The notes under the pieces: generated by a model
Databases searched by the model: none
What the model saw: the letters and a program-made list of their open reading frames with translations, nothing else
Told to the model about the DNA's origin: nothing
Program-made: the position numbers and the translations under genes
Shown: in pieces, positions 11,581-40,987 of the stretch
How the letters are laid out: each line of letters opens with the position of its first letter
Numbering within the stretch: position 1 is the stretch's first letter
Origin: Apostichopus japonicus
Taxonomy: Eukaryota > Echinodermata > Holothuroidea > Aspidochirotida > Stichopodidae
DNA length: 64,000 nucleotides
Direction: 5' to 3'
NCBI RefSeq assembly: GCF_037975245.1
Contig: NC_092563.1
Span: forward strand, 12,204,001-12,268,000

Positions 11581-11710
11581 TGTATGTCCAGAGGTTCGAA
11601 ACCGGTAAGGAAGGTCTATATGTTTGGGACTTGCTATTCTGTTTATTTAAGACTTGCATGTGTCTCAAGCATGAATGTATTACGGTACCCTCACACACTG
11701 AAAAAATAAA

Positions 11711-11960
11711 CTAGTCAATATTGCCACGGACTAACGTTAAATTAGTTTGTAACGTTAGTCAATGCACACGAACTAGCAAAAATCTTCGTTTCATCGCTGC
11801 TTCTTAGTCAGTTTACACTGACTAAGAAAAATATAATCGCAGCTTAGTCGGTGGCGACGGACTAAGGTATTTTAACCCATGGACTAAGAACGATACGGAC
11901 ACCCGATTTACGCCATAATCGTAGCTTAGTCGGTGTCGACGGACTAATGTATTTTAACCC
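11711..11960. repeat. Left subterminal repeat array of element A
   Basis: Multiple copies of GGACTAA, GACTAAGAA and TTAGTCGGTG occur in both orientations just inside the left end. Such subterminal arrays are transposase-binding regions in CACTA-type elements; that role is inferred here. Confidence 0.7.
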
Positions 11961-12082
11961 AATTCGATTCACTTCAATTTGGAAACCGAGAGGCAACGGC
12001 AGCTTGCTGGACTTGGCATAGTTTCATACGATCACTCTAAGCAACTTTCAACCGTAAATCACCCAAGAAGGTCTTTAGAAGA

Positions 12083-14660
12083 ATGGAGGTATTAACTGCC
12101 ATCATCGGCCTACCTGTTATTCCATTAACTTGAAGGTAAAATTAATTAAAGTTAATTGTTAGGCCACTGGCACTAGTACTCATGTATTATCGTTAGTGTA
12201 ATGCTACCGTTGTCACGCTGGCGTTTCGCAATACACAAGTGCAATGACAGTGAGTAGCCTATAGGCTTCTACTGGGTACTGCAGTGCATTCTCAACACTA
12301 CAGTGTGCATTCTAAACACCAATTAACAATGTGTTATGTGTGTATTGGGCTAGACTGAACAGTGGCACATAATCTTCTAATTTATTCCCAAACAAATGCT
12401 GGAACTATAAGTCTCAATAGTTTATTTGAAGTCTACACTCATTTGGTAAAGATTTCCTGTAATTTCCCATGTGAATCTAAATGGGTAGGCTTTGTGATAT
12501 TGAATAAGCAAGGCTAGACCTTCAAACGTACAGTCACAGTAGGCTGAACAAATTATGTTGGCTAGTCAACGGTATTATATGTTGCGAGCAGTTAGGATGC
12601 AGGCTTCAGTTCTATTTAACCTTTTCATTTATCATTTTTTAGTATTTAATTTCCGGTCACGCTCAGGAAACAATTGCGACATTCCTTCACGGTCGACTTG
12701 TTTACTGTAAGAAGTATTAACCGTTTTTTCTCAGGAAAGCTTGATAGTCTGAAGTTATTATAACATGTGCTTTTAGTATACTGCCAAAAGAGTAAGTTGT
12801 TGTATTTGTATTGATATTTTATGTAGAAGTAACGGAAAATTTAGTATGTTTAGTTTGGTCTATAATTGCACGTTTTTTTTCTGTCCAATGTAGTGCAGGG
12901 TTCACTTGCGCGAATTCAAATTATTCTGTTTATGTATATGTATATGCATCGATTCGTAGATTATGATGTTTTTTGACATTTATTTGTAATTCAAGCATAT
13001 CTGTTTAGTAGCAAAGTTTAAAGGTTAAGATTAATTAGTTTTCTCTTTTTGATCCTAGATTGAATGAAACTCATTGACGTAAATAATAGATCAGATGATA
13101 CAGTTTAACGCAGTTGCTAAAACTCTGGGTATTCTCTAGTCTTCGCCGGTCCATTATATACTTTAGTACTACTAGTAAGACTAAATCAAAACGGCCGAAA
13201 GACAAACTTAGTGTAACAAAGTATTGATTCTCCTCTAGCCTAGGTCTAAACAGGCTTGTTATGTGAGCAAGCAAAATAACAACTAAAAACGATTAGGCCT
13301 ATAAATAAGTTGGCTCAGTGCATTTCTGTTTCTAAAATTTTATATTTTTAAAGATCATAAAAACAAACAAAGATTTAGCCCATGTTTTATTATCTCTGTA
13401 TTCTGGGCATTTGATTCTGGTTGCAATGGTGATGACACTCTCGTTCAAATTTTCAGCTTATACAGTCTGCTTCAAACTTTGGGATTGTTTTTTGAGACTA
13501 TAGTGGAAGCAAATCTCACATAACTTTGTGGTGACAACTCTATTTTTTTTTTCTTCAAATGATGAATACTTTGCTGTTTCTTTTTTCCAGCAGGAATTGA
13601 GAAGCCAAATATCTAAGTCAAGGGTGAGGTTTCCTGTGATGTACGACACCAGTGTGGAGGCAACAACAGAAGAGGAGAACTGTGTTATATATGGCTTAAA
13701 GACATGTTTTAAGATGATATATTGGTACCCTTCGCAGAACAAAAGAGTTTATCCAAGAGCCCAAAAAGCAAAGGAACAAGTACCATAGAGAAAAAAGATG
13801 GAAGAGTGAGTTTAACTATTGTACCCAACTGTTTAATGATATTAAAGATATATACTTTTCATAACCTGTTTTAAAAAAAAAACAGTCTAGTATATCATTT
13901 ACGTGCAAGCTTCATAAGTTTGGTCAAATTTTCACTGATCTGTAGAGCGGGAGTCCAGAGGGTTTGGTTAGCTTGGAAGGTAACCAATTGCCTGGTACAT
14001 GGCCATTTGTTGCTCTTGGGGCCATACCTGACACATTGTACTTACTTTGATGTGTTACCATGAAAACTGATCTAGGTTAGCTATCAGGTGACTTTAAAAT
14101 TGCTCTCCCAGCCACACCCACCACAGTCGGTTTGCCAGTCGTCTGGTTTCATATACAGGAATGCACTGTGAACATTGTGATGTACAAGGCAATTGGTTAC
14201 CTTCCCAGCTAACCAAACCCTCTGGGCTCCCGGTCTATTGGGATCATTATTAACATGATTAACATAATTATTAAGCTTTGAAAAATAACTTGGTGTTATG
14301 CTGTGCAAAGCTAATAATTATTTGGTAAAGCTGCTATTCCTGGCTTATAATTTGAGGGACCTAGATTTAAATGTATACTTCCCAATATGTTATAAAATTT
14401 TAATGTAAATGTATGTTTATGATAATGTGAGTTATCATGTGCTATATCTGTATCTGTGCTTACACGTATATCATATTTTCTGTTCACAGGTCAATAATGG
14501 TGCAGATTTTGGCTTCCTGAAGACAAGTGGGAGGCCATTTGTAGTTAAGAGAAACACTCTTTGTTCGTGAAGACTTAACTGGTGTCGATTTGGGGTACCA
14601 CTTTAAAACGAAAGTCATGAGGAACCCTTGCCCAAGATTCAACTTTGCATTATTGTGCAG
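12083..14660 (+). pseudogene. BEN-domain gene relic in element A
   Basis: Exon-like blocks are shared with element B. Block 1 starts at ATG 12083 (reads MEVLTAIIGL, with a stop before a GTAAAA donor). Block 2 is 13591-13805, bounded by TTTTTTCCAG and GTGAGT. Block 3 is about 14490-14640, after a TGTTCACAG acceptor. Block 3 reads in shifting frames as GADFG, FVRED and LTGVDLG-like pieces that correspond to the start of the BEN-type domain read better in element B. Stops and frame changes are present and the C-terminal block is missing, so the copy is broken. A foldback of about 290 bp (13943-14236) sits in the intron before block 3 and is absent from B. Confidence 0.5.
13943..14236. repeat. 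Foldback (MITE-like) insertion inside element A
   Basis: Inverted arms of about 50-60 bp: GCGGGAGTCCAGAGGGTTTG onward at the left matches the reverse complement of the right arm ending AACCCTCTGGGCTCCCGGTC. The corresponding position in element B (near 38400-38440 on the minus strand) lacks it, so it entered copy A after the two lineages split or was lost from B. Confidence 0.7.
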
Positions 14661-14864
14661 TGCTATACTTTTGCGATTCATGTTTGATCCATTAACTTGT
14701 CTTAACTTTGTTGGAATAAAATCATATTTTCAGATTTTTGTTTACAGTGATTTCTTCTCTATCTGTCGAAAGTCAGCCTTTGTAGACATCAGAAGTTTTA
14801 TCAGAAATAATACTGCCAATGTACACATTATTTGTGTTTCTTCTGCTCTCTTTTCTTTCAGTGA

Positions 14865-15240
14865 TGCTAGTCAGTGAAACTAGTCGGGTTTAATTCTTTC
14901 AGTGATTCTAGTCAGTGCAACTAGTCAGTCGATACCGACTAAGAAAGGTTAGTCGGGAGAGGCACCATCCTGACTAATGTAAAACCTGCTATAAACTAGT
15001 CGGTGGCTCATATAAATTAGTCGGTAAAGACCGACTAATGTCACCAACTAATGTAACTGACTAATATACATTTAGCGACTAAGAAATTGTTGATCGACTA
15101 AGTTGACGGACTAAGATGACCCACTAAGAAATCCAACTGACTAAGGAATAAATTAGTCGGTATATCAACTGACTAAGGCTATGTTAGTCGGGAGAGGCAC
15201 CAGATGGACTAACGTTATGTTAGTCGGTGAACCAATTTAA
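14865..15240. repeat. Right subterminal repeat array of element A
   Basis: At least fifteen ACTAG/TTAGTCGG/GACTAA words occur in both orientations, including two copies of TTAGTCGGGAGAGGCACCA. It mirrors the left array at 11711-11960. Confidence 0.7.
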
Positions 15241-15480
15241 GTTTTCAGTGCAGGATAATACTTCCGTGTCTCAGGTATGCATTTCTTTAATGGAATTATA
15301 TAACGGACACAGGACAATCTTAGCTATTACATATTTGCATATAGGTGCGTGATTTTTACAAACACCACACGTGAATATGCCAATTTTTTGGCATAATGCT
15401 TATTTTCTCAAGCGATATAAATTATTTTCGACATTTCCGTAAAAACTACACAGTAATGAACGTCGTTTACGTATTATACA

Positions 15481-16735
15481 CAGGGACGTAGCTAAGGCCT
15501 GATGATTGAGAGTGGGTAGGGGGGGGGGGAGATGTAGTGGCTGAAATTCCAACTGGATGGGATTTGGAGCCAGAAAATTCCGACTGCTGCCTTGTAACCC
15601 GCAGCCCCCCCCCCCCCCACACCATACTCGTCAACGATACAGTCAGTGTCAGTCAGTCAGTCAGACACTCCATCTTTCGCGACTGCACTTTTGTTTTTTC
15701 GGTACATTTGTACCACTGGCCCTCACTTCACAAATTTATTAATCACTCTGGTTAGCGAGTAAGCAATGAGTATAAGTTATCTGCTTGATAGGCTACATAG
15801 ACTACCAACTAAAAAGGCTATGTTAATGTAACAAAGGGGAAAACTTTTCTTTTTCAACAAATTATATTCGACGACATAGTGAACTACCCCAAAATACAGT
15901 GCTTTTTCCTAGCGCGCTTAATATTATTTTCTTGGGGGGGGGGGGGGGCTATTTATCACTCACATGAAAAAAATTAAATTGTTCACTTCATTCCAACTGA
16001 GCATTGGGAATGAAGTGAACAGTTAAACATTTTGCAGAAAAATGTTGAGTTGACGAGATACGATAAGTTGCCAATTAAACATTTTGCAGAAAATTTTACA
16101 ATTGCTCAATTGGGATGAAGTGAACAATTGAACATTTTGCCAAAAACATGTCCAATTAACGAGATAAGATAAGTTGTCAATTGAACATTTTGCAGAAAAT
16201 TTTTCAATTGCTCAGATGGAATGAAGTGAACAAGTGAACAATTTGCAGCAAAATGTCCAATACACGAGATATGATAACTTGTCAATTAAACATTTTTCAA
16301 AAATTGTTCAATTGCTCAGCTTAAGCAACTAAGCAATCCAACATTTTTATGTTTTTTTTTTATAAGATTTTATCTTGTTATTTTAACAATTTACTGAAAA
16401 ATTTCACTTTATGGGCAAAGTTTTTCTTATGTTGATGGCCATTTTAAGCTTCCGTAGAATAACATTGAGCGTTTTAATTAATTGTATACGTTGTACAGTA
16501 GTTTATTAGGCATTTTTTTTAGAGTATTCAAAATCACACAAAGTTTTGTATGGTGGAGTATAAGAACCGCGAGATACAATTTCTTAATATGACAAGGAAA
16601 ACGTGGTAAATATAACTGATTAAAGGTCAAGTTTGACCGAAAATTGTAGGTCACTCACAAATAGCAAGAATTTATGAAAAATAGAGTGCGACAGTCGGAA
16701 AAATTAGAGTGCCACAGTCGGAAATTCCGTACTCA
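15481..16735 (-). mobile_element. Truncated copy of the outer hAT-like family
   Basis: It starts with the end CAGGGACGTAGCTAAGGCCT at 15481. It is an inverted relative of the outer element of the 55.8-59.5 kb nest: 15481-15720 matches 59476-59230, and about 16500-16730 matches 58230-57930 in reverse complement. The latter block includes the words GTGCGACAGTCGG and CGGAAATTCCG. The expected other end is not seen. Short frames across it are not genes. Confidence 0.65.
15960..16330. repeat. Degenerate tandem repeat, unit about 110-125 bp, about 3 copies
   Basis: Each unit contains GAAGTGAACA, ACATTTTGCAGAAAA, an ACGAGATA(C/A)GATAA(G/C)TTG block and CAATTGCTCA. It lies inside the truncated hAT-like copy and has no counterpart in the copy at 58-59 kb. 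A poly-G run sits just upstream near 15935. Confidence 0.65.
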
Positions 16736-16989
16736 TAAGCGTACGTATACAATTGTAATCTAAGGCTGATGGGTACAGTTTCTTCCTCGTTATGATCCCC
16801 CACTATAATTTTCAGTTGATATATGTAATCAACATATTATGTTAAATTAAAAGTAAGTATAGGTATCATCAACCTATATATGAAATTGATCGCAGAGTCA
16901 ATCAGGCGTAATAGATTTAGGGAGGGGAAATTGATTGTGGGGTGAGGGGCTTCGAGTTCAAATACGTATACTCATCAAAAGTAGTCTGT

Positions 16990-17345
16990 AATGGCCCCAA
17001 ATTACGGCATGCTGTAATTGCTGGAAGTTTTCAAAAAAGTCCTTTCCTGAAGGTGTTCACTCTCCATATTGTTCGCTGACATTATAAACACACACAACAA
17101 GATGACTAAATTTCCCAGTTAGGTAAATTTCCTCCAAGGTGGTTAATAAAACAGCTTAAGAATTTTAACATAAGGTGACCATATTTTAATATGTAGCATA
17201 TATGGGACCAATAAATCATACTTAGTATGATAGTAATATTTAGTAGTGTAGGGTCTACTCGTTTGTATTGGGCTTTAACCTAGTGAAGTTGCATATAACA
17301 AGGTTTGAACCTAACTGGAGACCAAAACTTCCCGGTATGTAACAC
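16990..17345 (+). repeat. Dispersed repeat R, copy 1 (forward)
   Basis: The copy contains AATTGCTGGAAGTTTTCAAAA, CACTCTCCATATTGTTC, GATGACTAAAT and GGTGACCAT blocks in order. A diverged forward copy lies at 18680-19030 and inverted copies at about 19800-20035 and 21465-21680. Family unknown; transposon-derived by inference. Confidence 0.6.
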
Positions 17346-17363
17346 CTTCGAAAAAAAATGAAG

Positions 17364-18600
17364 AGGCGCGGGAGGGGGTCGGGGGTCGGACAGAGGATTC
17401 AAGAAAGTATGTAATATATTGGCTTCTTTAATAGTGCAGTTCCTAAAGGGTCTACTCGTTTGTATTGGATTTTAATGCTTTCTAAATCGCTTAATTTTCA
17501 AACATGTTCTGTGAAGACTACTATATTTCAGTCATACTTTCCCAAGCGTGGGCACAATTCCCCTAAGCGTGGGCACAATAAAGTTACTGTCACACATGCA
17601 TGTTAACCAATATGTATATGTGTATCTATGTATATGTGTCGGGGGGGGGGGGGTCGGGTGTCGGAAAGAGGATTCAAGAAAGTATGTAATATATAGGCTT
17701 CTTTAATAGTGCAGTTCCTAAAGGGTCTACTCGTTTGTATTGGGTTTTAATTCCTTCTAAATTGCTTAATTTTCAAACGGTTTCTGTGAAGACTACTATA
17801 TTTCAGTCATACTTTCCCAAGCGTGGGCACAATTTCCCTAAGCGTGGGCACAATAAAGTTACTGTCACACTTGCATGTTAACAATATGTATATGTGTATA
17901 TATGTATATGTGTCGGGGGGGGGGGGGGTCGGGGGTCGGAAAGAGGATTCAAGAAAGTATGTAATATATAGGCTTCTTAAATAGTGCAGTTCCTAAAGGG
18001 TCTACTCATTTGTATTGGGTTTTAATTCCTTCTAAATTGCTTAATTTTCAAACGGTTTCTGTGAAGACTACTATATTTCAGTCATACTTTCCCAAGCGTG
18101 GGCACAATTCCCCTAAGCGTGGGCACAATAAAGTTACTGTCACAAATGCATGTTAACCAAAATGTGTATATATGTATATGTGTCGGGGGGGGGGGTGGGT
18201 CGGGAGTCGGAAAGAGGATACAAGAAAGTATGTAATATATAGGCTTCTTAAATAGTACAGTTCCTAAAGGGTCTACTCGTTTGTATTGGGTTTTAATCCT
18301 TTCTAAATCGCTTAATTTTCGAACAGTTTCTGTGAAGACTACTATATTTCAGTCATACTTTCCCAAGCGTGGGCACAATTCTCCTTAGCGTGGGCACAAT
18401 AAAGTTACTGTCACACATGCATGTTAACCAATATGTATATGTGTATCTATGTATATGTGTCGGGGGGGGGGTGGGTCGGGTGTCGGAAAGAGGATTCTAA
18501 TATAAAGGCTTCTTAAATAGTGCAAAGCGTGGGCACAATAAAGTTACTGTCACACATGCATGTTAACCAATATGTATATGTGTAGTGTATGCGGCTGCGT
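17364..18600 (+). repeat. Tandem array, unit about 275 bp, four copies plus a partial
   Basis: Units begin after a G-rich TCGGGGGGGG tract. They contain AGGATTCAAGAAAGTATGTA, GGGTCTACTCGTTTGTATTG, CATACTTTCCCAAGCGTGGG and a second AAGCGTGGGCACAAT, then a TGTATATGTGT run. GAGGATTC-type starts fall near 17392, 17666, 17945, 18214 and 18489 (the last truncated). A more diverged relative lies at 19030-19250. The copies are highly similar, suggesting recent expansion or gene conversion. Confidence 0.8.
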
Positions 18601-18679
18601 ACATTATACATATGTTGTCTATGTATATATGTTAATCGTACATATGTCTGTATCTGAGACTGTATCTGTGGACTGTATT

Positions 18680-19030
18680 GGCCGCAAATTAAGCAACTTG
18701 CAATAATTGCTAGGAATGTTCAAAAAAATACTTTCCTTGGAGGTCTTCGCTCTCCAAATTGTTCTCAGACATTCTTAATGAACACAAAAGATGACTGAAT
18801 GTCTAGTGAGGTAATTTTTCTTCCAACGAGGTAATATAACCGTTTAAGAATATTGACCAGGGGTGAGGTGACCATTTTTGAATATATGGCATATATGGGG
18901 CAATACAGCATACTTTAATCCTTCTACATAACCTATATTAGTTGCATATAACAAGTTTGAACCTAACTGGACACCCAAACTTCTCCCGTAGCAACGTAAA
19001 CACCTTCGAAAATTAAACGGGTGAGAGGGG
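18680..19030 (+). repeat. Dispersed repeat R, copy 2 (forward)
   Basis: A diverged duplicate of 16990-17345: the same block order, including AATAATTGCTAGGAATGTTCA, TTCGCTCTCCAAATTGTTC and GGTGACCATTTTTGAATA. Copies 1 and 2 bracket the 275-bp array, so the whole block looks like a segment duplicated together with a repeat unit. Confidence 0.6.
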
Positions 19031-19799
19031 GGGGGGGGGGGTCGGAGTGTTTGAAAGAGAATATAAGAAAGTATATGATGTATAGGCTTTTGTCTCACTT
19101 GCATTTTTTTCATGGGGCCTTCTCGTTTGTACATGGTGTAATGCCTTCCAAATTGTTAAATTTAAGAACAGGTTTTATGACAACTAGCCTAATATATTTC
19201 AATCATACTTTCCCAAGCGTGGGCACAATTCCCTAAGCGTGGCACAATACGGATCATATGTATATATGTGTGTGTATAGTGTACGCGGTTGCGTGCAGTA
19301 CACGTTGTATATGTTCATTTTAATCGTTACGTCTGTATCTAGCCGGTAAGCAATAGGCCCTACCTACAAGTTGTTTTTCATTCTATATATTAATCTTCGT
19401 GGCATTGTTCCACTAATTTTGAGGTGAATGTTTGTAAAACGTTTCCATGTTTGAATTCAGAGTTCAATAACATTATCTACAATAGAAAATTTTCAATAGA
19501 AATGAACGTGGAACACATTTCTGGCGTCAACATGTGTCATTTATTTACACTTGCTTTCTATGGCTGCAACAGAAACATTTGCAGCAATGAATAAGAGAGG
19601 AAAGGGAGAGCAAAATCGTTATTAAGTTGTCGCATTCCTGCAGTAAAGAGTGCACCGTCTTAACTACAAATTTATAAATATATACTTTGTACCTCGTGAA
19701 ACGTGTTTGGTAAAGTATGTTCTTTACTTTGAATCTTTTACTTGCAATTGTTTAGATTTTACACCCCAATACAAAACCAGTATATCCCGCTCCAAAGGT

Positions 19800-20035
19800 T
19801 TGCTGTTTTGGCCCCTAATATGCCAGGTATTCAAATATGCATGGTCACTTTTGATACAAAAAAAAATAAATATTGTATTTGTATTACCACCCTTGAGGAA
19901 ATTAACATTCAGTCATTTTATGTCTTTAATTTAGAAAGTATGAGAACAATTTGGAAAGTAAAGACCTCCTGGAAGGTAATTTTTGTAAACTTCTGGCAGT
20001 TATATATAGCGTGCTATAATTTGTGGCATATGCAG
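19800..20035 (-). repeat. Dispersed repeat R, copy 3 (inverted)
   Basis: It matches copies 1 and 2 in reverse complement (CATTCAGTCAT, GAACAATTTGGA, AACTTCTGGCAGTTA in order). The 142-residue frame at 19742-20170 runs through this repeat, has no recognisable domain, and is judged not to be a gene. Confidence 0.55.
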
Positions 20036-20264
20036 ACTACCTTTCATCCATTTAGCCACCGACAAATTGCTCAACGGGCAAGTATTAGCTTTGAAGTTAT
20101 GTTTTCAGGATCACCGCCCTATAAGTGTGTTATACATGTGCACATAATGGTAGCAGTGTTATACATATGAGCTGTTAATGTTACCCTAAAACTGAGGCTT
20201 TCTAGGCATTAACCCATCATTTCATGCTCACGACCCGACCTATAGCCAGATTGTTTAACAGGTG

Positions 20265-20735
20265 AGTTACAACTCCCTGATTTAACTAGTAATTAGCTAG
20301 GAAGCACATTAACGCAGGAGGATCGCCATCCTTTTGGAAATTTTCCAGTTCATATACTCCCTTAATGGGGTATAAGAGAATGTATAGCAAACGCTGATAC
20401 GTGTGCGAAAATTATCAAAGGAGAAAACAACCTCCCCGTGTGAAAAGAAAACAAAGAACAATAAGAAAGCAGACGTTAATTCAGTAAGAGTATACTATTA
20501 CTTTCAAACGTAAATAGTATCAGCAGGGAGTTGTTATGCAACTCCCTGGTATTAGTCAGCCATACATTTCGTAATCTATTCGCGGTCACATTATTAACCT
20601 TCCTGTTGTCATGTAAGCAGCTTTGACCGCGTTTGAAAACAAGCGCGTTTTTTCATGCTGGTTTTGCTGTCGTTTGATTGGAGGATGAACAGCGACTGAT
20701 CAGGGAGGTCTAAAATATCACCTCCCTGATCAACA
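20265..20735. other. Cluster of short perfect hairpins
   Basis: Small stem-loops include CAGGGAGTTG...CAACTCCCTG (20524-20548) and TCAGGGAGGT...ACCTCCCTGA (20700-20728); an isolated CAACTCCCTGA lies at 20271. Related hairpins occur at 27857-27882 (CATGGAGGT...ACCTCCATG) and about 50352-50381. They may mark ends of foldback MITEs; pairing of specific ends is not established. Otherwise 20035-21230 shows nothing. Confidence 0.45.
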
Positions 20736-21235
20736 GATGAGGATTGTTCATTGCGGTTTCACAAATTCTCTACAATAAACCAATTGGATGCACTGTTCTG
20801 TTTGATACAGTATAAGGCAGGCCGTATCGTGTATTTTCATTGTTGTATCTGCATATGCATCAAGAAGCAGATAAACCAAACACGTACCATACTAATCGGA
20901 CATAAATAATAATAATAAATAATAAAAAACGTCAAGCCAACTTACTTTAACACATAAATAATTATACATAAAAAAGTTAGACAGACAGATGAGGAGACCC
21001 GTGTATGTGTCTTCTCATCTGTTTTCTCATGATTCCAGCGGTAGTGATAAGAATATCGATCAGCCATGCCATAGCGCCGAACTTAATTCTTTGTGAGGGC
21101 GAGCTGTTTGCTGAGGTATTATGATCGAGGGCCCGCAACGTGAATTACGTAACTTACCAAAATGAGCAACCACGAGGAAATTTGCTGATACTCTCACAGA
21201 ATTATCTTGAGGAGTTTTGTTGGTTTGACGGCTGC

Positions 21236-21241
21236 ATATAT

Positions 21242-21273
<32 letters not shown>

Positions 21274-21302
21274 TTATATATAGGCCTTTATATATATATA
21301 GG

Positions 21303-21366
<64 letters not shown>
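21236..21366. repeat. (TA)n microsatellite
   Basis: A long TA run interrupted by two TAGGCCT(A/T)TATATA islands. The frames across it are artefacts. Confidence 0.9.
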
Positions 21367-21372
<6 letters not shown>

Positions 21373-21464
21373 CTGAACAAAGTATGAGAAATACATTGTG
21401 AGGTACATATGGTTGTATGTATGTGCAAGCCATGCACATTCACGTTGAAAGATATATGCTGTAT

Positions 21465-21680
21465 GAGAACAATGTCAGATATTCAAATATGGTCATCTTT
21501 GGTCAAATCCTTTAACTTTTTTATATTACCACGTGCACCCTGAAGGAAATTTACCTCACTGGACATTCAGTCATCTTGTATGTCCATTTACTAGAATTTC
21601 AAGAGAACACTTTGGAAGAGTTAAAACCTCTCTTTTTGAAAACTTCTAGCAAGTACTTTAGCATGCTATAATTACAGACG
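21465..21680 (-). repeat. Dispersed repeat R, copy 4 (inverted)
   Basis: It contains GGACATTCAGTCATCTTGT, GAGAACACTTTGGAAGAG and GAAAACTTCTAGCAAGTA, the reverse-complement order of copies 1 and 2. It closes an inverted arrangement (forward, forward, inverted, inverted) across 17.0-21.7 kb. Confidence 0.6.
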
Positions 21681-21729
21681 AACATATAATGAACCGAATA
21701 GGCAGATGATTGTCTCGGTAAAAATTACC

Positions 21730-22740
21730 CGTGGGTATAAATTAAATGTGACGTATATGGGCGTTGTAATCATACCGTAATCACGTTCTGTGTATTTCTT
21801 GAAATTTCCGACGCTTAAGTTAATATTAATCATCTCTTAAATTCCGAATCTTTATTGAGTCAATGTAAGCGAAGTTGATGTAATCATGCTGTACTGACAC
21901 TCGTGGTATGTGTATGCTCTTCGCTCGACGCGTAAGTGAATCGTAATCTTACCGTAAATTCCGAATTCAGTGGAGAATACATTCAACGTAAACGCAATGC
22001 GTAAGTTGGTGTAATCATGCTGTAATCCCGTGGTGTGCATGCTTCGGAATTTCCGACGTGTATATCCTAAACATGCCGTACTGTGCCTGTTTCAGGCGAA
22101 CGAAAATAACTTAAACTTGACGTTTAAGGATTTCGTAATCAATACGTAAACGCTGAAATGAAAGTATTTGGGTATTTGTAATTTTTTTTACAAATTGTTT
22201 GTAAATTTGTAAATTTTTTACAAATTATTTGTAAATTTTTAACTGCACTCGTTTCAGCCAACGTAAATGTTGAAATTTTGTTCATGAGATGCAGTCACAG
22301 GGTAATATCATTATCGGAAAGATTGACATGAGAATTGTGTCCAGTGTTTTATTTCATGGAACAATCAACGTTAACGTCATGCTTAAGTTTGGCGTAAGTT
22401 TGTTGTAACGCGTTGTATCTATGCTACGAGTTTCCGATGTGTAAGATAATCGTAATCCTGTCGTAAATTTCTTCGTGGCGAGATTAAGGTCAACGTAAAC
22501 GTGGAGAAGAAATAAGTTTTAATCAATACGAAAGTAATTATTAACTTCCGATATGTAAGTTGTCATAAACGTAACGGAAATCTGTTGGTTCGTGTTTACA
22601 ATGTTTACGGATGCGTAATCACATCGTAAACGCGTGGTTCCAAAATGTACGGGTTTCCGATGTTTAAGGTGACCGTAAGCAAGACGTAAACATCCAAGGA
22701 CTGTGCTTACGATAACTTAAATGCGTGTCTTTCTCCCGTG
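21730..22740. repeat. CGTAAAC-rich island 2
   Basis: About 1 kb of degenerate GTAATC, CGTAAAC, CGTAAATTCCG, TTCCGA(T/C)GTGTAAG and TCATGCTGTAATC words in both orientations, more CpG-rich than its flanks. A short sub-repeat (ACAAATT(A/G)TTTGTAAATTT) lies at 22187-22240. It shares words with 5480-6015. It resembles the subterminal arrays of elements A and B in style, but no bounding inverted termini were found. Confidence 0.6.
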
Positions 22741-22744
22741 TATA

Positions 22745-23298: not shown

Positions 23299-23426
23299 TT
23301 AAAATAATTTCCTGGCTCGTCTGACCTCTCTCCTTACTTCAACGCATTTGCTGTTGACCACAGAATTCAAATCTTTGTCAGCGGGAATGGGCACCCCATT
23401 TTTCCGACAATAGCAGAGAACAAAAG
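23299..23426 (-). CDS. BEN gene coding exon 5 (BEN domain end, stop)
   Basis: Too short to stand out as an open frame. Acceptor TTTTATGCAACAG; reads AFVLCYCRKNGVPIP, then VVNSKCVEVRREVRRARKLF and TAA at 23299-23301. The phase matches exon 4, and the sequence is typical of BEN C-termini. Confidence 0.85.
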
Positions 23427-30686: not shown

Positions 30687-31290
30687 TATGTCTCCCAAGT
30701 TCAATCACGGTATTACTTTAGCTTACTACTGAAACAGAGACCCTCTCGCTCTAGACCAGATCATGCAGACGATAAGTATAGGCTACAGACACACGTACAT
30801 ATTTTAACGTTAGGATATATGGCGTCATCAATAGCGCCCTGATATAACTCGGTGTCAACTTCTCTGCATAACAAACATCTCGGCCCAGAAACAACTCGGC
30901 AATTTTTGAAATAGTGGTATATACTTTTCCCTGTTAGTGGTGATAGAACAAGGGGGATTGCCCTTCCTCGAAGATCCCAGCTGATATAAGGCGGGAAAAA
31001 ATGACATGCAGATCTGTACGCCAACTATAATGTGTGCGACTTATCTCCATGGTGATTTGTTTTGGCTCGACTTCTAAGAACCGTGTTGATAGCCGGTACG
31101 ACCAGGCCGATATATTTCAGAGCATGTATGCATGCAGCGCTCATACTCATTGTCTGTCGAGTCGGTCATACGGTTTACGTTACGGCTGCAAGGTCGAGCT
31201 AGGCTACTGAGTACTGTAGCAATCAATCTGTATCTAGGCTACCTCTCAAATGGAGGAAACTTAACATTTACGGGCATATTCAAACAAAAG
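30687..31290. promoter_or_regulatory. Presumed bidirectional promoter between the BEN and transposase genes
   Basis: The two divergent coding starts are at 30686 (minus) and 31132 or 31291 (plus), leaving only about 0.45-0.6 kb for both 5' regions. The interval is richer in CpG than its surroundings. No TATA box or defined element is claimed; the promoter role is inferred from gene geometry. Confidence 0.45.
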
Positions 31291-31805
31291 ATGGAGCTGA
31301 CTGACAAAACAGGTGAAAATGAACTCAACATTAAACGAAGCCGCAGAGAGGAAGAAAACTATGGCGGTTCATTTGTTCGTCCAAGTCAAAGGGAGCCTAG
31401 CGCTAGGCCTAACGTTAGGCCTAACGTTGAAATGAAACGTTCGCGAAGCACACAGTGGCGATTAGATAAGGCTATTGCAGCTCATAGTGGAACAAAAAAT
31501 GATTTCTTCAGTTTGGATTACATCAAAGGAGTCCAACATGAGGATGTTAGCTTCGTCGGAACGTCAGTCAATTCGCCAACTAGTAATATGCCACTTGCAC
31601 TAGTAAGTGGCCTAGGGCCTACTTGTGATTCAAAATTAAACCAAAAATGTGCAGACCAGTCAACTAGGCCTAAATTGGACCATGCAGGCCCATCAAATGC
31701 TATGACATGTCAGACAGTATCTGGTTCAAATTCAACAAGGAATCATGAAGTTCCATCAAGTGCCATATCCTCTAGTAAAGATGAATGGAGCTTTGAAACT
31801 GAACG
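31132..31805 (+). CDS. Transposase gene exon 1
   Basis: Open from ATG 31132, with a second plausible start at 31291. It encodes Arg-rich stretches (KRSRREEEN, MKRSRSTQWRLD) that could bind DNA or target the nucleus. It ends ETE + CG before GTGAGC, phase 2. Confidence 0.65.
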
Positions 31806-32416
31806 GTGAGCAAATACCTAACTACAAGATGAGCATTTTAGCTTGTATAATTAAAGGTTGGCTAAGTACCTTTGGCTAGGCAAATTATTATAAAATAAAG
31901 GCCTAGGCCTATAGGTGTGTGTGTAGATTAATGTACCATGGTATACTGTCTGATTGACGTAACTTGGAAGTTCTGGGCTTGAATCTAACAGTTTCTTGTG
32001 ACTATATATCTTCATCAAAATAGCAGTTGGCACCACTAGTAAAAGGTGTGGTCTAAGGGAAGCTAACTTTTTTTTATCACTTTGGGAATTTCATTTTTGA
32101 ATCTTGTAGCTGAATAGACCATAGCACGCTACCACAGAAAATTTTCTTGAGATTACATAATCGACCTGCCTTAGTAGTAAAATGACCTCTCTTTACCAAT
32201 TTAGTCTGCAACTCCTGCCACATATTTGTTCTTGTATGAGGGTCTTTGTGTAGCCTATATGCTGTATGATTAACTACACAGTATAGACAAAGAGCCTCAT
32301 GGTGTCAAGAAGCAATGGGAAAGATCCGACACACAGGAATATGTAAAAATCTTCCATCTGATTTTGTTTCATATTTAATGCAAATATCTTTTTGTATTTT
32401 ATTTTTTGTATTCTAG

Positions 32417-32518
32417 TTCCATGGGCGATGATATAACAAGAAGAAGCAATGCTCCAGGTGACATAGGTTTTGACAGGGAAGAACTGGCTAGACTGAATTC
32501 TTCAGTACAATCAATCAA
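32417..32518 (+). CDS. Transposase gene exon 2
   Basis: A small exon between TTTGTATTCTAG and GTAAGT. It reads SMGDDITRRSNAPGDIGF and REELARLNSSVQSI; its phases match exons 1 and 3 exactly. Confidence 0.65.
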
Positions 32519-33292
32519 GTAAGTACTCTGTATCACATAAACTTGTGCAGTATCCCACACAACCGTTAGTGTTGCTAGAAGAATTAGGATAGCAAAACTT
32601 GATAGCACTACTTGTTTAATTCCCATATTTGGGTTACTATATGGTTCAGAGAGCACCCTAGTGCAAATGCTGCTACGTGGCTGCCGATGCCACTCTTTCA
32701 AAGGTATAGGCCTACTACACACTCAGTGACTCAAACACATTAATGCTGTCCATATTTAACATACTACAAATTATGTAAAAGTGGGCCTGATATTTCGATC
32801 CTAGCAGGATCTTTTTCACAAACAAAGGAGTAGTCCTCTACATATGGGCCAGTATCAAACTAGTGGTACAGTACACATTGCTAGCCTGTGACGTACAATG
32901 CGAATCAAACATTGCATAGAAATTTGCACACAAAAGCTTCAGAAATCAAATAGACATTAGGTCAAACAAAAGCACTACAGTGGAATGTACACAGACTGGA
33001 TTCCATCAAACGATAGTTACACCACACTTGTATTTAAACTACATGACTCATTTGGGCATAAAGTTTAATGCAGTTACTTGTATCAACACTTACAGGTAAT
33101 CCAAAATTTAACTTTATGTTCTTTAATTCAGTTGTGCTTCTTTTACTTGCCACCCACATACCCAAGTTTGCCACATTTTTACTTGTAATGTATGGTTTGC
33201 AATTGGTATATTTTTTATTTTATCAAAATTGGGCAAACATTGAATGGGTAAACCGATAATTTATTGTGATGATTTTTATCTCTTTTTATCAG

Positions 33293-35527
33293 CAGTGAAG
33301 AAGTGAGTTTTGAAGATGACATCGACAGTGTTAATGTGGATTTTGAAGAAACGGATAGCATGGAGGAATGTGAAACTTGGTTTGACTCTCAAGAAGACTT
33401 TGACATGAGTGAAGATACCTTAAATGGAGACATGTCAGTGACTTGTGACCAAACTGAAGCTGAAAATTCTGCTAGTGATGAAGGTAAACCAATTTACCAT
33501 GGTTCAAAGTTAAGTGTTGGGCAAAGTATGCTTCTGATTTTGTTGTATGCAACGCGTCATCAATGAACAGGAGTTGCTCTTGTAGACCTCCTTACATTAA
33601 TTTCCTTGCATTGCTTGACACCCAACTTGTGCAGAACTAGTCTCCACCTGTTTAACAAATTTTTTGCAAACTTGAGAAATCCTGTGAAATTTCATAAATT
33701 TTGCAACTTCTGTATGTACCTGTTGGAGAAAGAGGATCACCGTCCAATATGTGGAAAAGATGTTTCAAATAGTAGTGCAACTTCTGTTTTTATAGAAATT
33801 CCCATTGCTCAACAGATTGTTAATCTAATGCAGAAGCCAGGGTTTTATACAGACTTACAGCATAGATTTCATCGGAAAAAATCTGACCCCAAAAATATTG
33901 AAGACCTGTATGATGGTATTCAGTACAGGAGGCATTCCCATAATGGTGGGTTTTTTGATAACAAAAACAACATCTCCTTTATGTGGTATACGGATGGCTG
34001 TCCAATCTTTAAATCATCTCGTCTCAGTATGTGGCCGCTCTATTTTGTTATAAATGAGCTACCACTCAATAAAAGGTTATTGAAAGAAAACTTAATTTAT
34101 GCTGGACTGTGGTTTGGTGAGAAGCCAGCGATGGGGTCTTTCTTGAAGCCATTTCACGAGTCATTAAAACAGTTAAAAGAAGTTGGAATTTCTGTTAAAG
34201 TTCCAAGTGATGAGGAACCTATAACTGTGCGAGCAATAGTACTCTGTGGAACGTGTGACTTGCCTGCTCGTTGTTTAGTGTTGAATATGACACAGTTCAA
34301 TGGGGCATATGGATGTTGTCATTGCAAACAAAAAGGCAAGTCTGCTTCAACTGGCAAAGGTACTACATGGACATACCCATTTAAAGAGGTGGATCCCAAA
34401 GGTCCAAAGCGAACACATAATGATATGATGATGGATGCAAAGAAGGCCTACACAGAGAAAAAGTCTGTTGATGGCATCAAGGGGCCAACATTCTTAAGTT
34501 TTACTGGTTGCGACTTGGTTCATGGTGTAGCTATAGATTACATGCACACTGTTCTTCTTGGTGTTGTACGGAAGCTGCTGCACCTTTGGTTTGATAGTTC
34601 TAACCATAAGGAACTGTTCTCGATTGGAAAACAAGTTTATAAGGTAGATAAACGTTTAAAGGAAATAAAGCCACCCCATTTCATTTCTAGAGTTCCTCGT
34701 AGCATTAAGGAACACCTAGGTTATTGGAAAGCGTCTGAGTGTAGATCGTGGGTATTTTATTATGCTATTCCAGTTTTGTCTGGTATATTGAGTGATGTTT
34801 ATTTAAATCATTTTGCACTTCTTGTTGAAGCTATGTTTTTGTTGAATGGAGACTCTATTTCCCAAGAACAGCTTTTACATTGTGATCGTTTGCTTTACCA
34901 GTTTGGCTGCACCTTTAGCATTCTATATGGAGATAGATATATGACAGCTGTTGTACATCAGCTTGTCCATATAACAGATGTTGTGAGACATTTAGGCCCA
35001 CTGTGGGTGTATTCCTGCTTTGCCCTTGAAGATACAAATGGATCACTTTTGAAAATGGTAAAAGGTACTCAAAAACCAGAATTACAAATTGTTGCTAATC
35101 TCCAAATTATGTTAAAGCTGCCAACACTGTCTCTTCTGGTTCATGAGGAATCATTCATCAAATCCTTTGTAAAGAAACTAACTTACAAGAAAAGGCAAGC
35201 AAAAAACTGTTTAAAGGTTTCTGAAGTTTTCGATATAGTTGGGACACAACAAGAATACTACCCTTCAGAAGTTGAAATGAAGTTGTTGGCCAACTACCTG
35301 GGATTTGTCCCTAAAAGGTGTTTTAAATTTCTGAGATTGCAACTTAGAGAAGTAATGTTCCATTCAATGGAATATGTATTTGTCAGAAAGAGAAATTCAT
35401 ACACTGTAAAGTACATAACAAATGACAAGCATGCATTTGGTCAAGTTAGTTTTTATTTGAAATGTGTTGAACAATACACATGTAAACAGAAGTTTTGTTT
35501 ATGCAGTAGCAGGTATGTAGCACTGGT
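33293..35527 (+). CDS. Transposase gene exon 3 (catalytic region, internal TGA at 33564)
   Basis: Acceptor TTTTTATCAG. An acidic stretch (SFEDDIDSVNVDFEETDS and onward) leads into SVGQSMLLILLYATRHQ, the TGA, TGVALVDLLTLISLHC and then the tnp2-type catalytic core. At the 3' end CAG|GTATGT at 35512 could also act as a splice donor. Confidence 0.8.
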
Positions 35528-35539
35528 CCCAGGTGAAAA

Positions 35540-36230
35540 TTCCAGTTAATACCTGTTGAACAGGTTTTAACAGGTACCTGTTGCAACTGGTATTTGGTGA
35601 CAGGTAATAACAGGTATTAAATGGTATTAACGGGTGTTAACTGGTATTGACAGGTATTAACTGGTATTAACAGGTTTCAACTGTTTTCAACAGGCATAAC
35701 AGTTTTTAACTGGTATTAACAGGTATTAGCTGGTATTAACAGGTTTCAACTGTTTTCAACAGGTTTCAACAGGCACAACAGCTTTAGCTGGTATTAACAG
35801 GTATTAACTGGTAATAACAGGTTTCAACTGTTTTCAACAGGCATAACAGTTTTTAACTGGTATTAACCGGTTTCAACTGTTCTCAACAAGTTTCAACAGG
35901 CACAACAGTTTTTAACTGGCATGAACAGGTATTAACTGGTAATAACAGGTTTCAACTGTTTTCAACAGGCGCAACAGCTATTAACTGGTAATAACATACT
36001 GTATGAACTGGTTTCAACTGTTTTCAACAGGGGTAACAGGTTTTAACTGGTTCTGTTTTCAACATGTCTTTACTGGTATTGAAAACGTTTGAACAGGTAA
36101 GAACATGTATGGAAGGTTTTAAGCTGGTTATAACAGTAGGATTTTCCACACGTTCAATTGTTTTCAACAAGTTATCTGGTGAAAACAGGTGGCGATGAAT
36201 TTCAACAGGTTAAAATTACTCTTTACAGTT
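35540..36230. repeat. Left subterminal repeat array of element B
   Basis: About 690 bp of GGTATTAACAGGT, AACTGGTATTAACAGG and TTTCAACTGTTTTCAACAGG words. Nested higher-order units of about 95-105 bp recur through the array. Confidence 0.8.
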
Positions 36231-36234
36231 GCAC

Positions 36235-37341
36235 ATGATGTAGGTCTAACACTTAACAAGCAAGTTAAGGCGAGGGAGAACTTCCAGCAGATGGAGTAAA
36301 AATCACTGTTAACAAAAATCTGAAAATATCATTTTATTCCAACAAAGTTAAGACAAGTTAATGGATCAAACATGAATAGCAAAAGTATAGTACTGCACAA
36401 TAATGCAAAGTTGAGGGCAATGAAAAAGAAAACATAAATTTGGAGTCTAACAAGAAAGCAAACTTATGAAGTAAACGCTTTCATATTACACATTAAAAAC
36501 TTATATATATTATGAAATACCAACTAAATATGTTCATTAAAACAATGATTTCATGTATTGCTGTGGCAATTAAGAAAGGAAACTCTATCTGTTAAAACAA
36601 TATAAAGGTTAATTTTTTATCAATCATTATATCAAAATAAAAGTTACAGCTGAATAGATAAAAGTTATTCAAGAGTTAGCATTACCAAACTATGTAGTGT
36701 GCAATTCTGCATGCTAGGCAGACAATAATAATAGCTAGTCAGACAGTAACCTTTTGAAAGGAATTCATTCTTAAATTGGCTACCAATCAGATCTTAAAAA
36801 ACAATATTTACCTACAAAGCATGTATTTGTAATGCATATTTATACTGAACACATATGTGACGACAATGAACTGTCTATTCTGGAGTTTGAATAAAAATCT
36901 GAATACTGTTTAATGGCATTTGTACATACTGATTATATACTAGAAATGTTAGTTCTTTAAAAAAAAATAAGGCAAAAGTGGAAAGATGACTTTGCCAAGT
37001 AAAAATCAACATCAGTCTATAATAGTCATGGTTAAACCACTTTCAAGAAAAAACTGTCCAGAAGATCTCCATTGAAAACTTAAGTTGTAATTGACAGCAA
37101 CATACTTTCCATTTCCTGAATTTAATTAAAAAACTAAATACCATATAATGGCAAACAATAACTGTTTTAAACATAATAATAAATATGGGTTTAATCCTAC
37201 TTTGAAAAAAGAACTGTCTAAAAAAATTCCTCTGAAAAGTTAACTTGTCAGTGACAGCAATATGCTGTCAGTTTGAATAAAACTAAAGACTGTTTAATGG
37301 TAAGCAATAACCATTGAAAAAAATAATATGATACTAATGCT
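36235..37341. other. Element B interior, non-coding part
   Basis: AT-rich sequence between the left array and the BEN relic. GAAAAGTTAACTTGTCAGTGACAGCAA-like blocks recur loosely near 37075 and 37235, suggesting an old internal duplication of about 160 bp. No gene seen. Confidence 0.4.
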
Positions 37342-39690
37342 TTAAGGCCTTCTTTGTTTTACGATTGACGTCAGCTTCTCGGATATGTATTTGCTGAACC
37401 TTGCAGCTTCCTCAGTAAACTGCAGCTTTCTTTCAAACGTTCCACGAATTGTGCTGCAAGAAACAAAGCGTATGAACACTTAAGAATGGACTTATCATGA
37501 TTAACAGTAACAGTGTGGTCCTAAAACTTAACAAACTCTCTTGCATTGCTGGATGAGTGCTTTCATGGAAAGTTAAGGTCAAACTTTCCTATGGTTTATA
37601 ATGTCTCACGATATTTATCTCTGTTGGTATCCAACCTGAATGGACTAGCAATCACAGTCTAACCAAGAACATTCTTTTGGTTTAGAATTTGGGTTTGCTC
37701 AATGTAGTTTGATTGTAGGCTTCCTGTCAGAACTCAAAGGCAATTAAGAACCAACCAAAATGATATCAGTTGTTAACTCATGATACTGGAATGCATAATC
37801 CTACTGATAAATAGTTCTGTCAGTGTTAAAAAATTACTTACTCCTGAAAAACAGCTTATTCAGTAAATTATATTGTACACTTGTGTACTATGTCATGAGC
37901 TTGTAATATAAATGGTAACTTGTTTGAAAGCTTTCCATAATGACTAACCTTCCATAGCATTAAGCTTCACGGGAGACAACAGCGGTTTTCCATCTCTGTC
38001 ACTGTTGAATCGTGTGCAAGCATTCCCAACGACTTTCGTTTTCAAAGTGTTGGTACCCCAAATCAACACCAGTAAAGTCTCCACGAACATAGAGTGTTTC
38101 TCTTAACTACAAATGGCCTCCCACTTGTCTTCAGGAAGCCCAAAATCTGCACCAATATTGACCTGTGAACAGAAAATATGATATACCTGTAAGCATATAT
38201 ACAGATATAGCACATGATAACTCACATTATCATAAACATACATTAACATTAAAATTTTATATCAACATATTGGGAGGTAAACATTTAAATCAAGGTCCCT
38301 CAAGTTATAAGCCAGGAATAGCAGCTTTACCAAATAATTACTAGCTTTGCACTATAACACCAAGTTATTTTTCAAAGCTTAATAACCATGTTTATAATTA
38401 TCCCAAATCAGTAAAAAATTGGCCCAACTTATGACGCTTGTACGTAAATGATGTACCAGACTGTTTTTTATATATATTATATATAAACAGGTTATGAAAA
38501 GTATCTAAATAATATCATTACACATTTGGGTACAATAGTTAAACTCACCCTTCCATCTTTTTTCTCTATGGCACTTGTTCCTTTGCTTTTTGGACTCTTG
38601 GATAAACTCTTAATATCATCTTACACCATTATGTCTTTAAGCCATATACGTTCTCCTCTTCTGTTGTTGCCTCCACACTGGTGTCGTACATCACAGGAAA
38701 CCTCACCTGGATATTTGGTTTTTCAATTCTTCCTGGAAAAAGGAAATAGCAAAGCAGCAGTAGTCATGAATCATTTGAAAATATGAAATAAAGTTGTCAC
38801 CACAAAGTGATGTGAGATTTGCTTCCACAATAGTCTGAAAAAAAGATTCCCAAAGTCTGAAGCAGACTGTATAAAGCTGAACATTTGAACCAGAGTGTCA
38901 TCATTGCAACCAGAATCAAATGCCCAGACTACAGAGATAATAAAACATGGGCTAAATCTTTGTTTGTTTTTAAGATCTAAAAATACAAGATTTTCGAAAC
39001 ACAAATGCACTGAGCCAACTTATTTATAGGCCTAATTGTTTTAAGTTGTTATTTTGCTTGCTCACTTAACAAGTCTTATTTAGACCTACTGTAGGCTAGA
39101 GAAGAAACAGTTCTTTGTCACACTAAGTCAGTTTGTCTTTCAGTCGTTTTTTTAGTCTTACTAGTAGTAGTACTTAAGTATATAATACCGGTGACTAGCC
39201 AACATAATTTGTTCAGCCTACTGTAACAGTAAGTTTGAAGGTCTAGCCTTGTTTTATTCAATATCACATAGCCTACCCATTTAGATTCACATGGGAAATT
39301 CAAGAAATCTTTACCAAATGAGTGTAGACCTAAGCTTCAAGTAAACTACAGTATTGAAACTCAGTCCCAGCATTTGTTTGGAAATAAATTAGAAGATTAT
39401 GTGCGACTGTTCAATCTAGCCCAATACACACATAACACATTGCTAATTGGTGTTTAGAATGCACAGTTTAGTGTTGAGAATGCACTGCAGTACTCAATAG
39501 AAAACCTAGGCTACTCACTGTCATTGCACTTGTGTATTGCGAAACGCTAGCCTAACAACGGTCACAAGTGCCAGTGGCCTAACAATTAACGTTAGTTTTA
39601 CCTCCAAGTTTAAGGAACAACAGGAAGGCCGATGGTGGCGGTTAATACTTCCATTCTTCTATAGATCTTCTTGGGTGATTAACAGTTGAA
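37342..39690 (-). pseudogene. BEN-domain gene relic in element B
   Basis: Exon-like blocks on the minus strand: block 1 around the ATG near 39655 (reads MEVLTATIGLPVVP); block 2 38732-38549 (reads RIWLKDIMV, then DDIKSLSKSPKSKGTS and AIEKKDGRV); block 3 38162-37949 (VNIGADFGLPEDKWEAICS, stop, TLLVLIWGTNTLKTKVVG, then GKPLLSPVKLNAMEG); block 4 37452-37342 (IRGTFERKLQFTEEAARF to a TAA). Splice sites flank each block. GLP..KWEAIC, TLKTKVVG and KPLLSPVKLNA match the usual order of BEN-domain segments. A stop in block 3 and an internal frame shift show the copy is decayed. It is clearly related to the element A copy and only distantly to the BEN gene at 23-31 kb. Confidence 0.6.
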
Positions 39691-39724
39691 AGTTGCTTAG
39701 AGTGATCGTATTAAACCATGCCAA

Positions 39725-40440
39725 GCAATGCTTACGCTGTGCAATGCAAGTTCCCGTTGCTCCTCGGTTTCGAAATTGAATATGGTGTTGAAGTCAAAGT
39801 TCAACCTCGTACAAAATGTGATTATCGAAAAAATTTAAAATATTGTCTTTGGCCCCAATTTGAGAGTTTCATGTCACTAAAAATTACAAATATCATTAAT
39901 TGATATCAAAAAATTAAAACAACAGTAAATAAGAAAGAATTAAATCATAATACAATTTAAACAGTAATTATTTTTATCTTGATCTTGACTTGGCAATATG
40001 TGTCTTACTTTCTTAGACTATGAATCACTGATCTAAATATAGATGCGAGCTCGTCTCAATCTTTTGATGTATGTGTATGCTACGTATTCATATACTATCT
40101 GGAAGAACTCTCTCAGAAATTTAATATGTGAATTTTTCATTTTACCTTAATGTACCAAATAGGATAAACAATTCAGTGATCAGACATAGGTTATACCACA
40201 TCTTTGCAGTGGCAAAGCCAGCGAGGGCGGGGAAGGTGGGGGGCAGGGGAAAGAGTACCTCCACAAAAAATTTTGGGGACGTGATGTCCGACGGTGAAAA
40301 AAACGAAGGGAGCAAAAAAAGAGGAAATAATTGCATTATTTTGCATATAAGCCCTTTATGAGAAACACAAATTTTCAAGCCCCCCTCCCCTCATAAACCT
40401 TCCCTGACAACGGTGATCCACCATTATGTACCTTAAAGTG
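39725..40440. other. Element B right interior with hAT-like end fragment
   Basis: CAGTGGCAAAGCCAGCGAGG at 40209 resembles a hAT-type end followed by G-rich sequence, but no partner end or duplication was found. The remainder is AT-rich with no gene. Confidence 0.35.
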
Positions 40441-40975
40441 GAGACAGAAATTTTAACCAACTGGTACCTGTTGAATGCAACTGGTGTAACAGGTACCTGT
40501 TAAACCAGTTGTTTTCAACAGGTACCTGTTAAACCAGTTGTTTTCAACAGGTACCTGTTAAACCAGTTGTTTTCAACAGGTACCTGTTAAACCAGTTGTT
40601 TTCAACAGGTACCTGTTAAACCAGTTGTTTTCAACATGTACCTGTTAAACCAGTTGTTTTCAACAGGTACCTGTTTAACCAGTTGTTTTCAACAGTTACC
40701 TGTTAAACCAGTTGTTTTCAACAGGTACCTGTTAAACCAGTTGTTTTCAACAGGTATTTACCTGTTGAAAGCAACTGGTTTAACAGGTACCTGTTAAAAC
40801 CAATTGGTACCTGTTACAGCTTACAGGTAATTTACCTGTTGCAACAGGCAATTAACTGGTATATACTGGTTTTGGTCACAATACCTGTTAAAACCAGTTG
40901 TCGTTAACAGGTACCTGTTAGTCCCTGTTGGTTCCGGTTAAAACCAATTGAAATTGTAACAGGTATTAACAGGAA
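40440..40975. repeat. Right subterminal array of element B with 29-bp palindromic tandem
   Basis: Between about 40485 and 40755 a 29-bp unit repeats about nine times. Each unit carries the 14-bp perfect palindrome AACAGGTACCTGTT and AACCAGTTGTTTTC. The flanks hold looser AACTGGT/AACAGGT words. It mirrors the left array but is far more homogeneous. Confidence 0.85.
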
Positions 40976-40987
40976 TTTTCTCCTGGG

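Follow-up and report, generated by a model that had tools for sequence, protein, structure and literature searches.

An Apostichopus japonicus transposon as a probable chimera of F-family ends and a BEN-gene interior from another lineage

A 64-kb window of the Apostichopus japonicus genome (positions 12204001-12268000 of contig C3 in a 671.6-Mb assembly of 35 contigs) contains four nested transposons: element A lies within element D, D lies within element C, and element B also lies within C. The explanation that best accounts for the observations as a whole, and which we consider very probable, is that A is a chimeric non-autonomous transposon, in which ends from the family of an element elsewhere in the genome (F) enclose an interior from the lineage of B. 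This interior holds a dead gene for a BEN-domain protein, and as a second step we suggest that the BEN proteins of related elements may read the short-word arrays next to the transposon termini.

Element A (11696-15250, plus strand; 3,555 bp) has the termini CACTGAAAA...TTTTCAGTG and is flanked by the duplication CA/CA. Element B (35528-40987, minus strand; 5,460 bp) is also non-autonomous, with termini of the form CCCAGG[A/T]GAAAATTCC; its exact limits are set by the outermost sequence CCCAGGTGAAAATTCC...GGAATTTTCTCCTGGG and the duplication GT/GT. B interrupts a coding exon of the tnp2 transposase gene of C, and joining its two flanks with one GT yields an open frame, ...RYVALVCNMEKLPIS....

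A comparison of A with the reverse complement of B reveals four collinear blastn blocks at 82-93% identity (82.3% over 838 columns, 82.4% over 636, 90.9% over 397 and 92.6% over 135), which span 11973-14773 of A (plus strand) against 39780-36280 of B. The first-pass annotation of this sequence had aligned the two interiors by eye and placed the shared part of B at 37.34-39.79 kb; the alignment is real, and its true extent is longer; the B interior with the dead BEN gene spans 36280-39790 (minus strand). Between the blocks, approximately 1.6 kb of B is missing from A, and A contains two stretches absent from B: approximately 560 bp of sequence between 12.58 and 13.14 kb, and, at 13.94-14.24 kb, an insertion. 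This insertion (13943-14240) has the inverted ends GGGAGTCCAGAGGGTTTGGTTAGCT and is a shortened form in the window copy; at this site many of the scored A copies are longer by approximately 0.5-1 kb, and the copy L040 by over 2 kb.

The shared interior retains the outline of a BEN gene. In A, the third exon, which encodes the BEN domain, is truncated (14490-14643, plus strand; 68% identity over 47 aa by tblastn, with stops); in B, the third exon (37947-38159, minus strand) contains one in-frame stop, and the last exon (37345-37455, minus strand) encodes the C-terminal helix of the BEN domain. In-frame stops in exons 2 and 3 are common to A and B, and the interior was therefore probably already a pseudogene when the two parted. 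In a genome-wide search with exon 3, a stop is present in 36 of 40 B-like rows and in all 43 other rows typed by end; L037 is a B copy from which the stop in exon 3 is absent.

The ends of A and B have nothing recognizable in common. The 5' end of A (11696-11961, plus strand) carries an array of GACTAA/TTAGTC words, and its 3' end and array occupy 14774-15250 (plus strand); in B, the 3' array (35528-36215, minus strand) consists of AACTGGT/AACAGGT words, and the 5' array (40456-40987, minus strand) contains AACAGGTACCTGTT palindromes; 11 palindromes there are at least 10 bp long, a number that none of 200 shuffles reached. As the first-pass annotation had stated, the arrays differ completely: neither A array matches either B array by blastn at E<=10 with a word size of 7. 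Two pairings of the A and B termini were computed, with agreement at 10 and at 6 of 20 bases, and the termini belong to different classes, CACTG in A and CCCAGG in B. In A, the limits of the shared interior coincide with both array borders; B shows this on the 3' side only, and 665 bp separate its 5' array from the shared part.

The origin of the ends of A is indicated by element F (contig C2:30660328-30678161), which is bounded by two A-type ends 17.8 kb from each other and flanked by the duplication CT. F matches the first 266 bp of A at 89.9% (unrounded, 89.85%) and the last 477 bp at 91.8% over 478 alignment columns; both matches end at the borders of the interior, and F has no match to the A interior at E<=1e-3. 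F contains an 815-aa frame with a C2H2 finger-like start (read by eye; the Pfam finger matches are below cut-off), a weak Transposase_21 match (17.9 bits, below cut-off) and 19% identity to the tnp2 protein of C. This transposase is found at four loci at 99-100% identity, three of them long and open, and a second copy of F is 98.6% identical over 1.94 kb. No BEN sequence is detected in F by tblastn; none of the 54 F-type transposase starts lies within 5 kb of any of the 64 tnp2 starts with which they were compared, and no start in this set of 54 has any of 19 BEN exons within 25 kb. Additionally, the right flanks of seven tnp2 loci contain no A-type arrays, and three of them (L047, L049 and L050) no clear array within 4.2 kb.

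Copies throughout the genome show the same association of ends with interiors. Of 836 first-look candidates for the A interior and 668 for the B interior, 40 each were scored. The 40 best-scored A copies are 97-99% identical to the window A over the main block; older A copies exist (89% in the 3' array of L041). CACTGAAAAAATAAAC is present at the start of all eight A loci of the first search (L001-L008), and the B terminus is present in 25 of 30 B loci (L009-L038; 24 CCCAGGA and one TCCAGGA) and was not found in the other five with up to two mismatches allowed. Genome-wide, the A-type end pattern has 652 matches, in which some ends count twice and F ends are included (control, 1), and the B-type terminal pattern has 73 exact matches (control, 0); the two patterns are unequal in strictness. 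The sorting of interiors, in rows from the exon-3 search, covered contigs C1-C5, where both end lists are comparable. There, within a distance of 6 kb, each of the 13 B-like interiors (exon identity of at least 81%) is accompanied by a B end and never by an A end, and each of the 32 A-like interiors (67-78%) by an A end and never by a B end. The proposal that one interior resides in elements with different end systems holds. Counted over all contigs, 36 of 40 B-like interiors lie no more than 6 kb from one or more exact B ends.

Six loci (L039-L044) were read for a third type of end: L039 and L043 are old B-type copies, L040, L041 and L044 are A-type, and L042 has no ends, its bordering sequence being taken for a retroelement. 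L039 (1-9801) has B arrays on both sides and AT-rich extreme termini instead of CCCAGG. No third end type was found around the interior among the copies read, which are part of all copies, so that two end types stand where several distinct families had been envisaged. In a midpoint-rooted tree of 43 interiors, ten A rows form one clade (SH-aLRT 100), which is joined to the old B-ended copy L043 (97.4). The ends of A thus match F and its interior groups with the B lineage, and A therefore combines F-family ends with a B-lineage interior. All four A-end elements with both ends in hand have matching target duplications (A, CA; L056, a 1.05-kb deletion derivative of A, TA; L058, TA; F, CT), and the insertion sites of the A-end elements read are TA, TG, CA or CT. 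The expectation that arrays and 2-bp duplications mark the families held for A (CA), B (GT), E (TT; described below) and F (CT).

The setting from which the interior came is suggested by four BEN exons without stops, which are 47-51% identical to the A/B type and have divergent tnp2 frames 5.4-6.6 kb away. One of them lies in element E (contig C16:19760870-19772606; 11,737 bp, duplication TT), which has a stop-free BEN exon scoring 25 bits against Pfam BEN (PF10523; cut-off, 23.2) and, divergent from it, a 675-aa tnp2 frame (34% identity over 532 columns to the tnp2 of C) and a further frame. Its termini, CCCTGGTGGAAATTCCAGTT and CCCTAGTAGAAATTCCAGTA, share 18, 16, 15 and 13 of 20 bases with those of B, according to which of the four pairings is compared, and its AACTGGG arrays have weak blastn similarity to the B arrays (best E 1e-4). 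As E has a BEN exon of the A/B type, a tnp2 frame and B-like ends, the BEN interior belongs to elements with CCC termini, and B-like ends are likely its ancestral setting. An element with a transposase clade of its own exists for each end system, E for the B-like ends and F for the A ends, as the first-pass annotation had anticipated. Where B ends form widely spaced pairs, a B-type BEN exon lies between them, and these loci appear to be B copies enlarged by insertions. On the BEN profile itself the outcome is divided: the pieces from A/B and from C alone score 13.8-16.4 bits, below the cut-off, and the A/B type has a weak, non-significant BEND6 match (E 1.3), whereas the intact relative in E passes.

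The pairing of BEN with tnp2 is seen within the window in element C. The tnp2 gene of C (31093-41197, plus strand) is split by B and has a stop just ahead of 33567; its first exon (31093-31809) was placed from position alone, and 33567-35549 matches Transposase_21 (E 2e-9; 37.4 bits against a cut-off of 28.6). The BEN gene of C (23302-30686, minus strand; limits set by eye) comprises an N-terminal exon (30438-30686), exons at 26.9-27.6 kb that appear coiled-coil-like by eye, and BEN exons at 24410-24655 and 23302-23433. Of 19 BEN exons, 12 have a tnp2 in divergent orientation no more than 10 kb away (chance approximately 0.001 per exon, a figure that ignores repeat-rich contigs and family copies): four of five E-type exons, the fifth at 21 kb, and eight of 14 C-type exons. 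Such a tnp2-type transposase (Transposase_21) is present in C, and in E by likeness to C; A and B carry none. The termini begin with CCC in B, C and E and at the one end seen of L051, L052 and L053, and with CAC in A, D and F (CACTG, CACGG). Because they begin with CCC, we call B (by its likeness to E), C and E tnp2-type rather than CACTA in the strict sense. Subterminal short-word arrays are present in both ends of A, B, C, D and E, and target duplications of 2-3 bp are present in A, L056, L058, F, B (GT), D (TAT) and E (TT) and absent for C. BEN is the usual second, divergent gene of tnp2 elements with CCC termini, not cargo, and the initial picture of BEN as cargo packaged by two transposons gives way to that of a recurrent gene that is broken in A and B. 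No report of the pairing was found among the papers listed in searches of the open-access literature (subscription papers and Repbase, whose entries may note it, lay outside the search).

What BEN does in these elements may be suggested by the nearest solved relatives of the BEN of C, the human NAC1 structures 8yzs (E 1.1e-9) and 7bv9 (E 1.7e-9); the two joined BEN exons of C align over residues 2-119 of the 123 in the human NAC1 structure. According to PMC11472053, DNA binding by BEN domains is sequence-specific and places helix alpha-5 in the major groove, and PMC7764960 and PMC11472053 report that human NAC1 selects ACATGT, with the core CATG. The arrays of C, made of ACATGC words, contain 35 CATG in 554 bp on the left (3597-4150, plus strand) and 22 in 431 bp on the right (46751-47181, minus strand), or 51-63 per kb, where 200 mononucleotide shuffles give at most 7 and 5 and the window averages 5.9 per kb. 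L051, of another tnp2 family, has 18 CATG per kb, and the ten other arrays tested have 0-8. In the alignment, the NAC1 alpha-5 contacts R468, R469 and R472 are kept in C. On the basis of the tnp2 pairing, the NAC1-like BEN domain with CATG arrays and the precedent of plant TNPA, we propose that the BEN protein of CCC-end elements may be an array-reading partner of tnp2, by analogy with TNPA in plant En/Spm. Palindromes, as in the 5' array of B, gave a mixed result across arrays and were rejected as a general mark of BEN arrays.

Instead of a partner, BEN could be a passenger or a captured host gene that is kept for a host or anti-silencing role. Host BEN proteins are indeed chromatin factors (PMC11472053), and the C-type exons without an adjacent tnp2 match could be host genes or remnants. 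However, two BEN subtypes repeatedly show the divergent arrangement, with 12 loci at a spacing of up to 10 kb, and the array words of C match the motif of the nearest solved BEN relative; we regard the passenger reading as rather unlikely, at about one chance in a few.

Several observations weigh against the proposed explanation. With regard to the origin of the interior, the tree is rooted only at its midpoint and its polarity depends on the B-like ends of E; the BEN exon of E is only approximately 50% identical to that of B, so that E is a relative and not a demonstrated driver of B, and genome-wide pattern matches revealed no autonomous element with exact B ends (four solo ends were left aside). 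The B-ended L043, on contig C12 and thus outside C1-C5, has 78% exon identity and falls among the A-like rows; exon identity alone is an imperfect label of end type. With regard to BEN as a partner, six of the 14 C-type exons have no divergent tnp2 match within 10 kb, two partial stop-free BEN-exon matches (C15:12324607 and C16:38993281) have no tnp2 match nearby, several pairs probably represent a single family in multiple copies (equal scores in five C-type rows), and the chance figure takes no account of clustering on contig C17. With regard to array reading, D462, T465 and N466, three of the six named NAC1 alpha-5 contacts, differ in C; a relative of C at C16:1371447 with a 65% identical BEN has an array that lacks CATG and contains CGTG instead (42 per kb), and palindromes are not enriched in the E arrays or the 3' array of B. 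The terminus of this relative, CCCCTCTACAAATTTAAG, resembles that of C by eye with one gap, and 10-11 of 20 bases agree ungapped.

Two other accounts of A and B are each very improbable. In the first, A and B stem from one element whose arrays and termini diverged past recognition while the interior drifted. Arrays can change fast, since the main array words of C and its relative at C16:1371447 differ; a weak array match remains between these two (E 0.011). The ends of A and B, however, do not align at all around a largely non-coding interior that is approximately 82% identical. The ends of A are, moreover, 90-92% identical to those of F, whose transposase clade overlaps none of the tnp2 starts compared, and the termini are of different classes. 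On the match to F and the non-alignment of the arrays, we reject array divergence from one ancestor for this pair, and with it the suggestion of fast array evolution around a conserved cargo. The second account, in which the interior was a separate mobile element or dispersed repeat that inserted into both, draws on the 836 and 668 first-look candidates and the 665 bp between interior and 5' array in B. We reject it on account of the junctions, where no terminal repeat or duplication belonging to the interior is visible, and of the sorting on C1-C5, where each of the 45 BEN-exon rows has A ends or B ends, never both, no more than 6 kb away; E carries a homologous BEN gene as part of the element, and a solitary interior bordered by a target duplication was not seen among the loci read.

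For the chimera, the following course may be envisaged. An element of the B lineage, with CCC termini, AACAGGT/AACTGGT arrays and an already dead BEN gene, would have lost its own ends, and its interior would have come to sit between the ends of a relative of F, with CACTG termini and TTAGTCGG arrays. Recognition of its ends makes a cut-and-paste element mobile. As ends and arrays are what the transposition machinery reads, the interior would thereby have shifted from a tnp2 plus BEN system to an F-type transposase, and the hybrid would then have amplified to probably a few hundred copies. An F-type transposase presumably moves A, and E-like machinery presumably moves B. The swap may have occurred, for example, by abortive gap repair with a template switch, for which the sole help is a TCAAC microhomology at the internal deletion of A (read by eye).

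Of the surrounding elements, C (3597-47181, plus strand) measures 43,585 bp including D and B and 20,917 bp without them; its termini are CCCCTTACACAAATT and CCCCTCATACAAATT, and its flanks show no matching target duplication (AT vs TT). Directly after its tnp2 gene lies a 378-bp palindromic stretch (41245-41622; 91% self-complementary), probably a foldback element, and its right part contains a cluster of CGATTAC/TAATCG words with a 95-bp direct repeat (45670-46560). Element D (5533-22740, plus strand; 17,208 bp), which contains A, has termini of the form CACGGGA.AAA.ACACGC, the duplication TAT, arrays of CGTAA words and tandem repeats at 17.4-19.2 kb. Approximately 600 bp beyond the right end of C is a tandem repeat of approximately 59 bp (47775-48370; approximately 10 copies, 93-98% alike). 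Minus-strand frames at 52778-54683 resemble an UNC-93/MFS-type membrane transporter, which we take to be a probable host gene. An Rfam search gave no matches.

These observations provide a clear example, from a genome that contains relatives of both donors, of a transposon interior that changed its set of ends and most likely its mobilising system too, and they give BEN genes a place as the recurrent divergent partner of tnp2 in the CCC-end elements of this animal. If BEN does read the arrays, it would be a concrete and testable candidate for the animal equivalent of TNPA, and the many natural arrays could be used to deduce the DNA specificity of BEN proteins. A wider generalization, to our minds evenly poised, is that animal tnp2 transposons use BEN as an array reader, that the BEN recognition helix and the subterminal words are matched within each family, as with the NAC1-like BEN and the CATG words of C, and co-evolve as an interchangeable module, that end swaps let a dead interior parasitise another system, and that some host BEN transcription factors might descend from array readers.

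Chimera A belongs to a known kind, the non-autonomous tnp2/CACTA-type elements. Like deletion derivatives of CACTA elements, A and B have kept their ends and carry no transposase; unlike these, A has an interior that does not come from the family that supplied its ends. The BEN domain of C aligns with that of human NAC1 (NACC1), and its arrays are rich in the NAC1 motif CATG (PMC7764960 and PMC11472053); unlike in NAC1, half of the named alpha-5 contact residues (three of six) differ, and no BTB domain was noticed in the BEN gene of C, for which no separate search was made. A further close parallel is plant En/Spm, which encodes TNPD (tnp2) and TNPA: here too a tnp2-type transposase is accompanied by a second element-encoded protein, and terminal repeats, subterminal word arrays and short duplications are present, with array words that vary by family. 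According to PMC2613891, plant TNPA binds the subterminal repeats, the array words and TNPA-like proteins vary while the termini are kept, and TNPA-like proteins share little similarity among themselves; for animals, nothing on subterminal repeats with TNPA was found in the open-access literature. In contrast to En/Spm, the second protein has a BEN domain and is encoded by a divergent gene rather than by a splice form of the transposase transcript, the termini of C, B and E begin with CCC and not CAC, and the duplications of A, B, E and F are 2 bp long.

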